64,000 nucleotides of DNA from Hysterium pulicare CBS 123377 (Eukaryota > Ascomycota > Dothideomycetes > Hysteriales > Hysteriaceae). The stretch's first letter is position 1. Every line of letters starts with the position of its first letter. Positions 36,612 to 40,931 of this stretch are shown here, in pieces. Both the position numbers and the translations under genes were made by a program. Under the pieces are notes generated by a model, which saw nothing but the letters and a program-made list of their open reading frames with translations, searched no databases and was not told the origin of the DNA. The stretch spans positions 78,442-142,441 of the forward strand of contig AJFK01001064.1 of NCBI GenBank assembly GCA_000467715.1, given 5' to 3'.

Positions 36612-38759
36612 ATGCCTTCGATACTCTCCGAAGAGGATAAGCTGACGGTCAAACGGACTGTGCCCAAAGCTTCGAACAAGATCCACGCCGTTGCCGTTGC
36701 GAAACTATATATAGCGTACCCCGACAGACACCGATGGACATACACTGGTCTTCAGGGTGCCGCAGTACTCGCAAATGACTTGGTTGGGAACACATTCTGG
36801 ATCAAGCTGGTAGATGTGTCTGTACGTCAATTGCTCTGGCACTTCTCGATTTCTAACCTCACTAATTGTTACTAGCCTGCAAACCGTGGAGTGATATGGG
36901 ATCAGGAAATCTACGACACTTTCTCCTACAATCAAGATCGTGTATTCTTCCATACCTTTGAACTCGAGGACTGTCTGGCCGGACTTTCTTTCAGCGATGA
37001 AAAAGAGGCAAAAACTTTCAAGAAGAAGATGGACGACCGAGAGAAGAAGGCAGATAAGAATACGAGGAATAAGCCATTTGGAGCATCTATGCAAGGCTCA
37101 TCCGCTACAAATGGCAAGAAGGAACACCATGGTCTACTTGGGGGTATCTTTGGCCACAGACACAGTTCGGCTTCCCACCACCAGCCTCAATCGATCATTC
37201 CACCGAGCACTTTGAGTGTCACTTCACCTACTCAGAACAGCCATTCCAACGCATCGAGTGCCAGAAGCTCCGCGATTGATACTACGGATCCATCTTGGCA
37301 ACCCCTACTGAAGGAATTGCTTGCTATGGGAATAACGGAGGATCAAATCGAGGAGAATGCCGACTTTATCAAGCTATATATTGAACAAAGGAAGATAGAG
37401 GAAAAGATAGCAGCAGACTCAGCAGCGAAAGGCGCGAGGGCTCCACCTCCCCCGCCACCGAGTGCACCTGCGGGAAGGACCACATCGATCAGCCCTCAGA
37501 ATACGGGAAGCTCGAGGAGAGGGCCCCCTCCGGCTCCGCCGCCAGCAAGGAGAACTAGAACTGATGTTCCTGTAGTCAACCGAGCTTCGTCATCAAGTCC
37601 AGCACCTCCTTCACCTCCAAGACAAGCATCGCCTCCTCCTGGGCCTCCCGTTCCGAGATTCCGTGCTCCTCCTCCCATTGCTGAAGCTGGGAAATTTGCT
37701 CATGAGCCTCCAGCGCCTCCGTCAAGAGCGCGAGCTACTTCAAATAGTCTGGTAAATCCAGGGCCTCCCCCGCCTCCTCGACCCCCGAAAACACCCGTCG
37801 AAGAAGAGTCCAGTCAGCCAGCACACAAATTTGGCGTACCGCCGCCATTTACAGGCGCTCGCGCACCATCTAATCCACCTCTTCCGCCAAGTCGAGGTCC
37901 AGTCCCTCCTCCGCCCCCAGCGCGAGATACCCCTTCAATCCACGTAGCTCCTCCCCCACTCCCGCCAAAAGGCTCGTCTGCGCCTCCGCCTCTACCGCCT
38001 ACGACATCTCGTCCTCTCCCATCTCCGAGCTCAGTTCCTCCGCCCCCGCCTCGCAATAATGTTCCCGAAGATGACGAGGACTACGATCCATATCGATATG
38101 CGGCTTCGGCACCACGCGCAGTACCTCCACCACCGCCTCTACCTTCAAATAATGCCCCTCATCCTCCTCCATTGCCTTCGACAAATGCCCCAGCACCGCC
38201 GCCTTTGCCGCCATTGGGCAACGTAGCACCGCCTCCTCCGCCGATGCCGCACAGTTCGATACCTCCTCCGCCGCCGATGCCGAACAATTCGATTCCGCCT
38301 CCGCCTCCGATGCCGAACAAATCGATTCCCCCTCCACCTCCGATGCCTTCAGGCCACGTTCCTCCGCCTCCGCCTTTGCCCCCAGGCAACGGACCACCCC
38401 CACCGCCTCCAATGCCCGGCGCAGGCTTACCAAAGAAAGCGGCAGGTGGCGGCGGCGTAGACAATTTGTTGGCGGACATTCGTGGCGGTGCCAGGCTGAA
38501 GAAAGTTTCGGACGCGGAAAAGAGGGATCGCAGTGGAGCGCTCGTGCCGGGCGCGGAACCTTCGGCCAGTTCACCTTCTGCTGGAGGTGCAGCTGCTGGT
38601 GCTGGTGCGGAAGCCGGTTTGGCTGGAGCGTTGGCTAGTGCGCTTGCTGCCAGGAAGAGTAAAGTTAGTCATAGTGGTAAGTTATTGGATATCTCGACCG
38701 TTTACTCTTCGATGTGCTAATGCATAATAGATGATGAGGATGAAAATGACGATTGGTGA
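36612..38759 (+). CDS. las17: Wiskott-Aldrich syndrome protein homologue Las17/WasA
   Basis: WASP/Las17 activates Arp2/3-driven actin branching at endocytic patches and hyphal tips. Exons are 36612-36821, 36876-38676 and 38731-38759; introns are 54 nt each, and the product has 679 residues. The N-terminal WH1/EVH1 domain covers about residues 10-115 (KIHAVAVAKLYIAYPDRHRW, FWIKLVDVSPANRGVIWDQE, FHTFELEDCLAGLSF) and recruits verprolin/WIP. A basic region follows, then a helical stretch (LLKELLAMGITEDQIEENAD). About 330 residues are proline-rich with many PPPPP runs for SH3 proteins and profilin. The WH2 actin-binding motif is NLLADIRGGARLKKVS near residue 600. The acidic Arp2/3-binding tail DDEDENDDW is encoded by a separate 29-nt last exon. 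No CRIB domain is seen, as usual in fungal WASPs. Confidence 0.95.
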
Positions 38760-40193
38760 TTGAAGAATGAACGGGATTAGGTGGATGCTGTTTGTAGAAT
38801 GCAATAACGGCTTTGGCCAATTCTTGTCAGGAGTCTAGGACAACCGCGAGGCACGACGGCTTCGTCCTGAGGACCCTGGAAAGACCATTGGTGGATGAAG
38901 AGACAAGTGTACTTTGTCTGGGTCAATGGGATTGAGACACTGCTCTGAAAGCGTGTGTGGATATTGAAAAACGATACCGAGGACCGAATTGGAGTTTAGC
39001 GTGGAGTAGTGTAGCGGTTACATTGATAGTTACTACTGAGAAGTATATGGCCCTTCTTTTGACCGCGCTTTATTGCTGAGTATGCCTTCTGCAAGGATCC
39101 CAGGGGTTTAAGTATGTCAACCGTGCATCTATATTTTACGTATCATGGTAGAATCACCCGAAGCCAGACGCTTCATAGTTTCCGGGGATGGATGTCAAAG
39201 TTCGAATGCTCAACATCCTAAGTTCGGATACCCACCAATTCGATGTTGTCTAATCATTAAATATGAAATTTCCAGACAAGAAGAATGCCTTCTTTCTCCT
39301 TGATGGGACTTCAAGGATTTGGAGCATGAGGAAAGGTTTCGAAGCAAAACGACAGGCTTGTTCAAAGAATGGAAATATCAAGATGGCGTTACCATCGGCC
39401 CCTTAATTAAACACCCTTTTTAAACGTCTTCCTGATCTCCAAAACATCGTGCATCTCAGCTGGCTTTTGTTGAAAGGAGAACTGTCCAACGGAAACCCCT
39501 GATCCCCTTATCACCCTCAGATATTTGAGATATTGTGTACGGGGCTTGAAAAGGGGAGATAACTGCATACCTTGGACCAGCCCATGAAAGAGATGTAGTC
39601 TATTCTACACCCTGTAGGTGTTTGTCCAGGGAGTTTGCTGCTTGTCTTACTTAAATAGCTGCTCCCACCTACCTTGTACCAGCGGATCATTTCTTTCTCT
39701 TCAGAAACACAATGACGTCCCGCAAACATGAGATGAGATACGTCTTTCATGGATGCGAGCGAATAACACATATAGCTCCTGAACAGACTTGTATGCATGA
39801 CTTCCCAGAGAGAAGCTGCGTTGAAATACGTACCAAAAGTATTCAGGGGACTAGTACCCGGGAGGTTTTGTGATACCCACGTAGAAGCAGGACACTGAAA
39901 AGACTTGAAGTATTATTTCAAATCCTTGGGCCGTCTTGAATATAACGATGAGTGTCTGAAGGAGGAAGATACTGGCTTGGTCCACTCCTTACGGCTAGCG
40001 TCGAGCAAGAACGATAGAAGCCCCGCACAGAACCTAATGATTCATTCGCCTCTGAAGCCCCTCCTCCTGAGTCACGCCGACATGCCCTGATTGGTGATAA
40101 TCCTTGGGAAAGTTCACGCGTTGCTTCTGCGTTCGTCTGTAACCAAGTACTTATTCCGATCAAAATTCTTTCTCCTTTAAATCTCTTACAATC
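38760..40193. other. Intergenic between LAS17 and the tRNA gene
   Basis: No supported protein gene. Short frames at 39517-39798 and 39905-40163 have no recognisable content. The immediate 5' flank of the tRNA contains T-rich sequence at 40167-40178. Confidence 0.4.
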
Positions 40194-40215
40194 GGACAGA
40201 TGGCCGAGCGGTTAA

Positions 40216-40267
40216 GTCAGTACCATTTGGAGATTTTTTGATTGAAATCTTGCTAACCATATGCCAG
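40216..40267 (+). other. Spliceosomal-type intron in the D arm of tRNA-Leu(CAA)
   Basis: The 52-nt insertion starts GTCAGT and ends CCAG, with a CTAAC branch-site match at 40253-40257, 11 nt before the acceptor. That layout equals the mRNA introns of this window. Removal joins GGTTAA to GGC and gives a standard D loop and 3-bp D stem. A one-base shift of the borders is possible because a G lies at both ends. Confidence 0.8.
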
Positions 40268-40282
40268 GGCGTGCGACTCAAG

Positions 40283-40307
40283 TGAAAGCTTTCCAGTTTA
40301 ACTGGTT
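40283..40307 (+). other. Canonical tRNA intron (after position 37)
   Basis: This 25-nt insertion sits directly 3' to the anticodon-adjacent G37, the standard eukaryotic tRNA intron site cut by the tRNA splicing endonuclease. It contains an inner inverted repeat, CCAGT...ACTGG. Exact ends may shift by one base. Confidence 0.8.
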
Positions 40308-40331
40308 TTCGCATGGAGAAATCCTCGTGGG

Positions 40332-40380
40332 GTATGTGATATCTAGTCTTCAATACAGATTACAACTAATTTCCCAACAG
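40332..40380 (+). other. Spliceosomal-type intron in the T arm of tRNA-Leu(CAA)
   Basis: The 49-nt insertion has a perfect GTATGT donor, a CTAAT branch-site match at 40366-40370 and a CAACAG acceptor. Removal gives a perfect 5-bp T stem and a TTCGAAT loop. Its final G keeps the B-box core GTTCGAATC contiguous in the DNA. Confidence 0.8.
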
Positions 40381-40406
40381 TTCGAATCCCACTCTGTTCA
40401 ACATTC

Positions 40407-40412
40407 TTTTTT
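40407..40412 (+). terminator. RNA polymerase III terminator of the tRNA gene
   Basis: A run of six T begins 7 bases after the discriminator base, the usual Pol III stop signal. Confidence 0.75.
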
Positions 40413-40931
40413 GTCATTGTCATTTTATAGTAATACCTATATACTTGTTTCAATAGCTATGTTGGTTGATTAAATGCTAATGAATCAAAAAAGCTTGATG
40501 CTACTTTTTTTTGAAAGTTGCGAAGGTGGGGGCGTAATATGCCAACACAGGATAGTTCTCGTATATTAATCGAAACTCCAGCAGCATTTCTGGCCCAGCA
40601 CCAGTTACGGTGTAACTTGAGAAATATCAGAGGTCAATAAATAAAAGAGAGCCCCTATATCTATCTCCCACAGAGATGAGATGTACACGATAACTTATAA
40701 TGATGACGGAATTTCTCCATTTCAAGACCATAATAGAATTGCCTCAATGTCATTCAAAATTATATTCCGCTATTTGTACATGCCGACATTAATTGAGAGC
40801 ATTCGCTCTATCATGACTAATTTCCTACCTCCAGGCGCTGCTGAAGGTATGTATATATCTCATAAAGCCCATCCATGCTCAAGTAATGAATGTGTTCCCA
40901 TAGCTCAGGTCTTATAGACGCCTCCTCTCGA
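40413..40931. other. Intergenic after the tRNA
   Basis: AT-rich, with nothing recognised. A plus frame at 40681-40917 is probably chance. Confidence 0.4.

Follow-up and report, generated by a model that had tools for sequence, protein, structure and literature searches.

Putative spliceosomal introns alongside canonical tRNA introns in nuclear tRNA genes of Hysterium pulicare

The DNA described in this report, referred to throughout as the window, is a stretch of 64,000 nucleotides that forms part of contig C581 of the draft Hysterium pulicare genome assembly (37.2 Mb in 596 contigs). It includes a tRNA-Leu(CAA) gene divided into four exons by three introns. A single one of these, 25 nt long, fits the canonical position 37/38 of the tRNA; the other two lie in the D arm at 22/23 and in the T arm at 53/54, and both begin with GT, end with AG, and contain a branch-site match. 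The features of the locus are listed below with the evidence for each.

40194..40400, + strand: tRNA-Leu(CAA) gene, 207 nt, four exons and three introns (ARAGORN after removal of the GT-AG inserts; structural scanner)
40194..40215, + strand: exon 1, the acceptor 5' strand and position 8 to 22, with the A box intact at 40201-40211 (sequence, ARAGORN)
40216..40267, + strand: D-arm intron, 52 nt, at 22/23, GTCAGT...CCAG, its 3' end reading TTGCTAACCATATGCCAG (sequence, scanner)
40234..40239, + strand: run of six T's (T6) within the D-arm intron, a possible Pol III stop (sequence)
40253..40257, + strand: branch-site match CTAAC, its A (40256) 11 nt before the end of the D-arm intron (motif)
40268..40282, + strand: exon 2, the D stem 3' strand, anticodon stem 5' strand, anticodon CAA, and base 37 (ARAGORN)
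40283..40307, + strand: canonical tRNA intron, 25 nt, at 37/38, with neither GT-AG ends nor CTAAY (ARAGORN)
40308..40331, + strand: exon 3, the anticodon stem 3' strand, variable arm, and T stem 5' strand (ARAGORN)
40332..40380, + strand: T-arm intron, 49 nt, at 53/54, GTATGT...ACAG, its 3' end reading CAACTAATTTCCCAACAG (sequence, scanner)
40366..40370, + strand: branch-site match CTAAT, its A (40369) 11 nt before the end of the T-arm intron (motif)
40379..40389, + strand: B-box-like AGTTCGAATCC, in which the intron-terminal AG stands in place of G52 G53 of the spliced tRNA (sequence)
40381..40400, + strand: exon 4, the T loop, T stem 3' strand, acceptor 3' strand, and discriminator A (ARAGORN)
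40407..40412, + strand: T6 run past the gene, resembling a Pol III terminator (sequence)

ARAGORN gave no tRNA call on the intact 207-nt gene or anywhere in the window, and Rfam returned no tRNA in the window at the gathering score and none up to E 10 in 40000-40600. When the two GT-AG inserts were removed, ARAGORN called tRNA-Leu(caa), its 25-nt intron in the standard position. With our own model, R1, the intact gene reached only 19.9 bits for positions 1-72 (E 0.014 for all bases in that search), in an alignment that has the T-arm intron right and wrongly puts the D and anticodon arms inside the D-arm intron. The spliced sequence is a full cloverleaf with the CAA anticodon and a long variable arm, and by the scanner its stems are paired at 7/7 positions in the acceptor, 5/5 in the anticodon arm, 5/5 in the T arm, and 3/4 in the D arm.

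An initial annotation of this locus, made from the sequence alone, had described a tRNA-Leu(CAA) gene with two mRNA-type introns in addition to the canonical one, and that interpretation is supported here. Its coordinates for the exons and inserts all proved correct on re-reading of the sequence and with ARAGORN, and the scanner arrived at the same boundaries. Its description of the splice signals also stands, with the branch A 11 nt before the end in both inserts. It had claimed perfect D and T stems, which is true of the T stem; the D stem has 3 bp (GCC/GGC) followed by G13.A22, and the D-arm intron was therefore placed at 22/23. A 3-bp D stem with G13.A22 is usual in class II tRNAs. The likeness that it drew to mRNA introns of the window was borne out, for example, by an intron with the same kind of signals in a WH1-domain gene.

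36822..36875, + strand: mRNA intron of the WH1-domain gene, 54 nt, GTACGT...CACTAATTGTTACTAG, taken for comparison

The WH1 domain spans this junction in the spliced protein (E 4.5e-29). Five mRNA-type introns of the window, 48-57 nt in length and one of them domain-supported, were picked by hand from the 34 overlapping candidates of a crude intron finder, which gave 10-25 candidates in shuffled and 12 in reversed sequence.

The Leu gene is one of at least nine tRNA genes of this genome that contain GT-AG introns at sites other than the canonical one; we call these introns ectopic, and 13 were found. The eight further genes were reached through the genome-wide Rfam tRNA model, a T-arm intron pattern, and R1.

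Arg(TCG), locus L103: introns at 20/21 and 53/54, plus a canonical intron
Thr(TGT), locus L036: introns at 26/27 and 51/52, plus a canonical intron
Cys(GCA), locus L090: introns at 24/25 and 47/48, probably plus a canonical intron
Gly(TCC), locus L066: intron at 46/48, plus a canonical intron
Gly(CCC)b, the second Gly(CCC) gene, locus L073: intron at 53/54, plus a canonical intron
Lys(TTT), locus L074: intron at 53/54
Ile(AAT), locus L077: intron at 21/22
Ala(AGC), locus L076 on contig C471: 50-nt intron at 58/59

A reading of L073 as Glu(TTC) was rejected, the anticodon by position being CCC (Gly).

The ectopic introns measure 47, 48, 48, 49, 50, 50, 50, 51, 51, 52, 52, 52, and 78 nt. All 13 have GT...AG ends, a property that was also used to pick between boundaries one base apart and to find the Arg and Cys genes. 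The donor is GTNNGT in 12 of the 13, and 12 have YTNAY, the A of which lies 10-14 nt upstream of the acceptor end (CTAAY in 11, CTTAC in one); intron 1 of the Thr gene has CTAAG where the others have YTNAY. The introns of Gly(TCC), Gly(CCC)b, Lys, Ile, and Ala were found via the Rfam tRNA model, which takes no account of splice signals, and in all five there are GT-AG ends at a boundary allowed by the structure together with CTAAY, for which simulation gives a chance of 0.023 per insert at that place. No sequence kinship was detected among the 13 introns, the longest common stretch being 12 nt at the branch site. An origin from introner-like elements was rejected on this ground, and so were self-splicing group I or II introns, given the lengths of 47-78 nt and the lack of any Rfam match to them in the window at the gathering score.

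ARAGORN calls a tRNA for each of the nine spliced sequences, with a different anticodon for Gly(CCC)b and Thr(TGT), where it places the canonical intron elsewhere. The acceptor, anticodon, and T stems are fully paired in eight of the nine genes, the D stems are paired at 3 or 4 of 4 positions, and the stem sums are 20-21 of 21 with G-T pairs counted. The exception is Cys, which has one A.C mismatch in the anticodon stem; ARAGORN calls its spliced form Cys(gca) and sees no canonical intron in it, the scanner settled on one 94-nt deletion and a different anticodon, and this parse is the weakest of the nine. Minimum-energy folding, which covered the spliced Leu, Thr, Cys, and Arg tRNAs, gave structures better than shuffles for Leu (z -2.37) and Thr (z -2.47), a weak one that is not a cloverleaf for Cys (z -1.39), and one no better than shuffles for Arg (z -0.27).

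The scanner looks for acceptor, D, anticodon, and T stems while allowing 0-2 GT..YAG deletions with a loose branch motif, and its threshold is a stem sum of 19 out of 21. It was run on 326,203 bases, a total in which overlapping loci are counted twice and which comes mostly from around tRNA-like matches rather than from a random sample. The output was 27 distinct genes, 18 without and 9 with deletions, and there were none in the same bases reversed and none in three approximate dinucleotide shuffles. A narrower version that disallowed a D-arm intron at 22/23 missed the Leu gene, and its controls also gave none.

Pattern counts by themselves do not rise above background: for the searches behind the Arg, Cys, and Leu introns they were not above the reversed controls. 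The D-arm intron pattern had 63 matches against 119 in reversed sequence; five of the 63 places were examined, and these were the Leu and Ile genes and three sites (on C511, C539, and C185) that are not tRNAs. The T-arm pattern had 35 matches against 45 in the control, and a stem screen of 30 of these gave three tRNA genes (Lys, Gly(CCC)b, and Arg). The Cys gene was among the same 30, failed the screen, and was recognized later through R1. The remaining five T-arm matches include the Leu gene of the window and a site on C501 that is no tRNA. Another of the 30, L097, passed the screen but has no A box and was rejected as a chance match. A pattern for introns at 51/52 and 52/53 had 8 matches against 11 in the control, one of the 8 being the Thr gene, and the pattern GGTTCGANNCC, with 200 matches against 342, is uninformative as a count.

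As an internal comparison we used 16 canonical anticodon-loop introns of the same genome, five of which belong to the nine genes. GT-AG ends occur in 0/16 and CTAAY in 0/16; the boundaries were set by hand, and the lengths of 9-36 nt are shorter, so that the missing CTAAY is partly expected.

The tRNA census itself is a lower bound. Only 63 out of the 1,229 candidates received a score in the genome-wide Rfam tRNA search, and the genes that escaped it include at least Gln(TTG), Leu(CAA), Arg(TCG), Cys(GCA), and Thr(TGT); R1 was applied to selected loci, so that the genome-wide census is incomplete. The missed Gln(TTG) gene is at L065 (C131), where it (830-912, reverse) and a tRNA-Gln(CTG) gene (1501-1586, forward) lie close together on opposite strands. 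The best 20 tRNA matches appear to differ in anticodon, and the genes are few, nearly single-copy, and in many cases equipped with canonical introns; so few tRNA genes would be low for a 37-Mb fungal genome, an impression to be read with the census as a lower bound.

Several other tRNA-like sequences were seen. L069 (1501-1571), L071 (1501-1578), L072 (1501-1569), and L075 (1500-1608) form a family of the type GTCGGTGTAG...GACCCAGGTTCRATTCC...GCGCCGGCC in which the anticodon arms vary; these may be repeats derived from tRNAs, or pseudogenes. L068 (1501-1587 and 1979-2087, minus strand, C95) has two neighboring tRNA-like genes, GGGGAGTTCGTCTAGTGGTAGGA... and GGGGATCTCGTCTAGTGGTAGGA..., whose anticodon arms are odd; each gene contains TTTTGGATA. 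L070 (1501-1578 and 758-843, minus strand, C493) is a tRNA-like pair with R1 scores of 30.9 and 25.1 bits and irregular D and anticodon arms. At L001, positions 2064-2119 are a copy of the 5' half of the adjoining tRNA-Ala(TGC) gene (R1, 16.2 bits) and likely a pseudogene.

The number of copies of each affected gene bears directly on whether the introns must be removed. Exon 1 of the Leu gene (22 nt, 3 mismatches allowed) has a single match in the 37.2-Mb assembly, at the Leu locus, and no ordinary tRNA-Leu(CAA) gene, of the kind that the annotation had proposed to look for, was found elsewhere in it. A search of the assembly with spliced tRNAs likewise gave no Leu or Arg match; their own exons are too short to seed such a match, the shortest exon that did seed being one of 38 nt (Gly(CCC)b), and an uninterrupted Leu half (37 or 44 nt) would be near or within reach. 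The query of this search was a set of eight spliced tRNAs joined end to end, in which Lys, Ile, Gly(TCC), and Gly(CCC)b led exon by exon to the intron-bearing loci only, Ala led to both of its genes and to a partial decayed copy, and a Val control was recovered. A second search found no copy of Cys(GCA) or Thr(TGT) without such introns in the assembly and recovered its His and Ser controls. For Gly(CCC) there is a further gene without an ectopic intron, L007. As the assembly is a draft in many contigs, the absence of copies is no proof.

By the standard wobble rules, Lys(TTT) is required for AAA, Ile(AAT) for AUU and AUC, Cys(GCA) for UGU and UGC, and Gly(TCC) for GGA. Should the assembly be complete, the sole copies of the Lys, Ile, Cys, and Gly(TCC) genes, together with these decoding needs, would make removal of the introns a requirement for life. 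The argument does not apply to Ala, nor to Gly(CCC)b, because L007 lacks such an intron, and other tRNAs may decode the codons of Leu(CAA) and Arg(TCG).

The Ala(AGC) genes offer a direct pair. The gene at L005 (contig C78) has no intron and the one at L076 has the intron at 58/59; their 72 exon bases (57 plus 15) are identical, and their flanks differ by eye. This looks like a recent intron gain or loss, and with such a with/without pair the gain of an intron by a non-coding gene would become open to direct test. L111 (C78:92280-92470), approximately 8 kb away from the intact Ala(AGC) gene, retains in decayed form some 45 nt from the start of tRNA-Ala(AGC); the sequence that comes next pairs with the 5' part of this copy.

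Internal promoter elements have largely been spared. The A box is uninterrupted in all nine genes, and all five introns on the D-arm side lie past it. The B box is intact in four genes, rebuilt by the intron AG in four, and broken after base 58 in Ala. In the four genes with introns at 53/54, the terminal AG precedes TTCGA and so keeps a B-box-like AGTTCGANNC; the uninterrupted Ser(AGA) gene at L016 has a similar B-box form, AGTTCGAATCT. A T-run of at least 6 is found within 60 nt downstream of every one of the nine genes. The T6 in the D-arm intron of the Leu gene is as long as the one past the gene; it could stop Pol III and in that respect counts against ordinary Pol III transcription. The other 12 ectopic introns have no T-run longer than 4, an absence that is not itself significant, since T5 occurs in approximately 7-9% of AT-rich 52-nt stretches of the window. 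Five full-length matches to U6 snRNA (C383, C300, C342, C6, and C411; 54-82 bits) are uninterrupted, and thus not every Pol III gene is affected.

Three other accounts of these inserts were weighed. They might be ectopic introns of the tRNA endonuclease, which recognizes a bulge-helix-bulge (BHB), as in Crenarchaeota, the red alga Cyanidioschyzon merolae, and algal nucleomorphs, their GT-AG ends being incidental. The sites would suit this: archaeal introns at 20/21, 22/23, and 53/54, among others, and tRNAs with three introns are described in PMC4090602. Sought in its strict form, with a 4-bp central helix and one-base slides of the boundaries counted, the BHB was found in 0/13 introns (best 3/4). 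The combination in nearly all of GT-AG ends with a branch motif at a near-fixed distance, the mRNA-like length, and the absence of these signals from the canonical introns of the same genome also speak against a BHB origin, which we regard as extremely unlikely. The intron-bearing copies might instead be pseudogenes, with the working genes elsewhere or missing from the assembly. D- and T-arm insertions in eukaryotic tRNA genes were supposed to mark pseudogenes, nucleomorphs and C. merolae being the exceptions, in a 2014 review (PMC4090602); the draft state of the assembly and the T6 in the Leu intron point the same way. Against this, a copy without ectopic introns was found in that assembly for none of Leu, Lys, Ile, Gly(TCC), Cys, and Thr, the stems are well paired throughout the nine genes, and decay would not jointly preserve GT-AG ends, a branch site, and a 50-nt length. 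With eight more such genes known, several of them apparently the sole gene for their anticodon, we consider decay a very unlikely explanation.

The remaining account, which overlaps with our own, accepts the introns as spliceosomal and supposes that Pol II transcribes the genes into capped precursors that are spliced in the normal way. This would explain why a T6 is tolerated in the Leu intron. It sits poorly with the intact A boxes, with B boxes that are kept or rebuilt everywhere except in Ala, with the T-runs past all nine genes, and with the lack of long T-runs in 12 of 13 introns, and we think it improbable.

Spliceosomal removal is the simplest reading of these sequences. We judge it highly probable that U2-type spliceosomal introns have entered nuclear tRNA genes and are removed by the spliceosome from the pre-tRNAs before the tRNA endonuclease acts. 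The Leu(CAA) gene would be transcribed into one precursor, most likely by Pol III because its A box is intact, its B box is rebuilt by the intron AG, and a T-run lies past the gene. In the nucleus, the spliceosome would then take out the D-arm and T-arm introns, and with these gone the D and T arms could fold. RNase P, tRNase Z, and the tRNA endonuclease all require folded arms; RNase P and tRNase Z would thus process the ends of the folded tRNA, and the tRNA splicing endonuclease and ligase would come last, the endonuclease excising the canonical 25-nt intron to leave a tRNA presumed to be functional.

Introns of nuclear tRNAs are ascribed to the endonuclease/ligase pathway, and those that the spliceosome removes are assigned chiefly to transcripts of Pol II; we know of no natural spliceosomal intron in a nuclear tRNA gene. 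The open-licence literature contained no recognized case of natural spliceosomal introns in nuclear tRNA genes among the matches listed. What is proposed here would therefore be a known type of intron in a class of genes without a recognized natural example. A precedent for the spliceosome acting on a tRNA precursor is artificial: Koehrer, Vogel, and Domdey (EMBO J 1990) reportedly engineered a yeast pre-tRNA with a pre-mRNA intron, which was spliced by the mRNA pathway. The introns described here differ in being natural and in occurring in nine genes of one genome, several of them apparently single-copy.

Among natural systems, the U6 gene of Schizosaccharomyces pombe is transcribed by Pol III and has an mRNA-type intron that is spliced (PMC10484740), and is thus alike in having such an intron in a short Pol III RNA gene. 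It differs in that U6 itself belongs to the spliceosome, and reverse splicing near the catalytic bases is the presumed source of its intron; here the hosts are tRNAs, with up to two such introns per gene and a second splicing system on the same precursor. Nuclear rDNA of lichens and other ascomycetes also has spliceosomal introns in a structural RNA, and yeast removed the lichen ones from Pol I rRNA, according to PMC8527467. That system concerns rRNA and Pol I rather than tRNA, with no second splicing system involved. Endonuclease introns outside 37/38 in archaea and C. merolae are of the BHB type, and those of Crenarchaeota, C. merolae, and the Guillardia nucleomorph resemble ours in their D-arm, variable-region, and T-arm sites and in numbering up to three per tRNA, according to PMC4090602 and PMC3978253. 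Theirs are BHB-type, or short with processing unknown, whereas those in H. pulicare have GT-AG ends, branch sites, and a length of approximately 50 nt, and no strict BHB.

It seems likely, then, that spliceosomal introns have colonized tRNA genes of this fungus, including the apparently sole genes for the anticodons TTT (Lys), AAT (Ile), GCA (Cys), TCC (Gly), and TGT (Thr), so that translation would need the spliceosome to work on Pol III transcripts and the tRNA endonuclease to follow it. tRNA finders would under-count the genes of such genomes, as the silence of ARAGORN at the Leu locus illustrates. If the reading is correct, two unrelated splicing systems act in series on one small RNA, and how efficiently the introns are spliced could limit what the cell can decode. 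Such natural tRNA genes, with introns of both types, would make the spliceosome a possible obligatory factor in tRNA processing, with consequences for how introns spread and for how the spliceosome finds substrates that have no cap.
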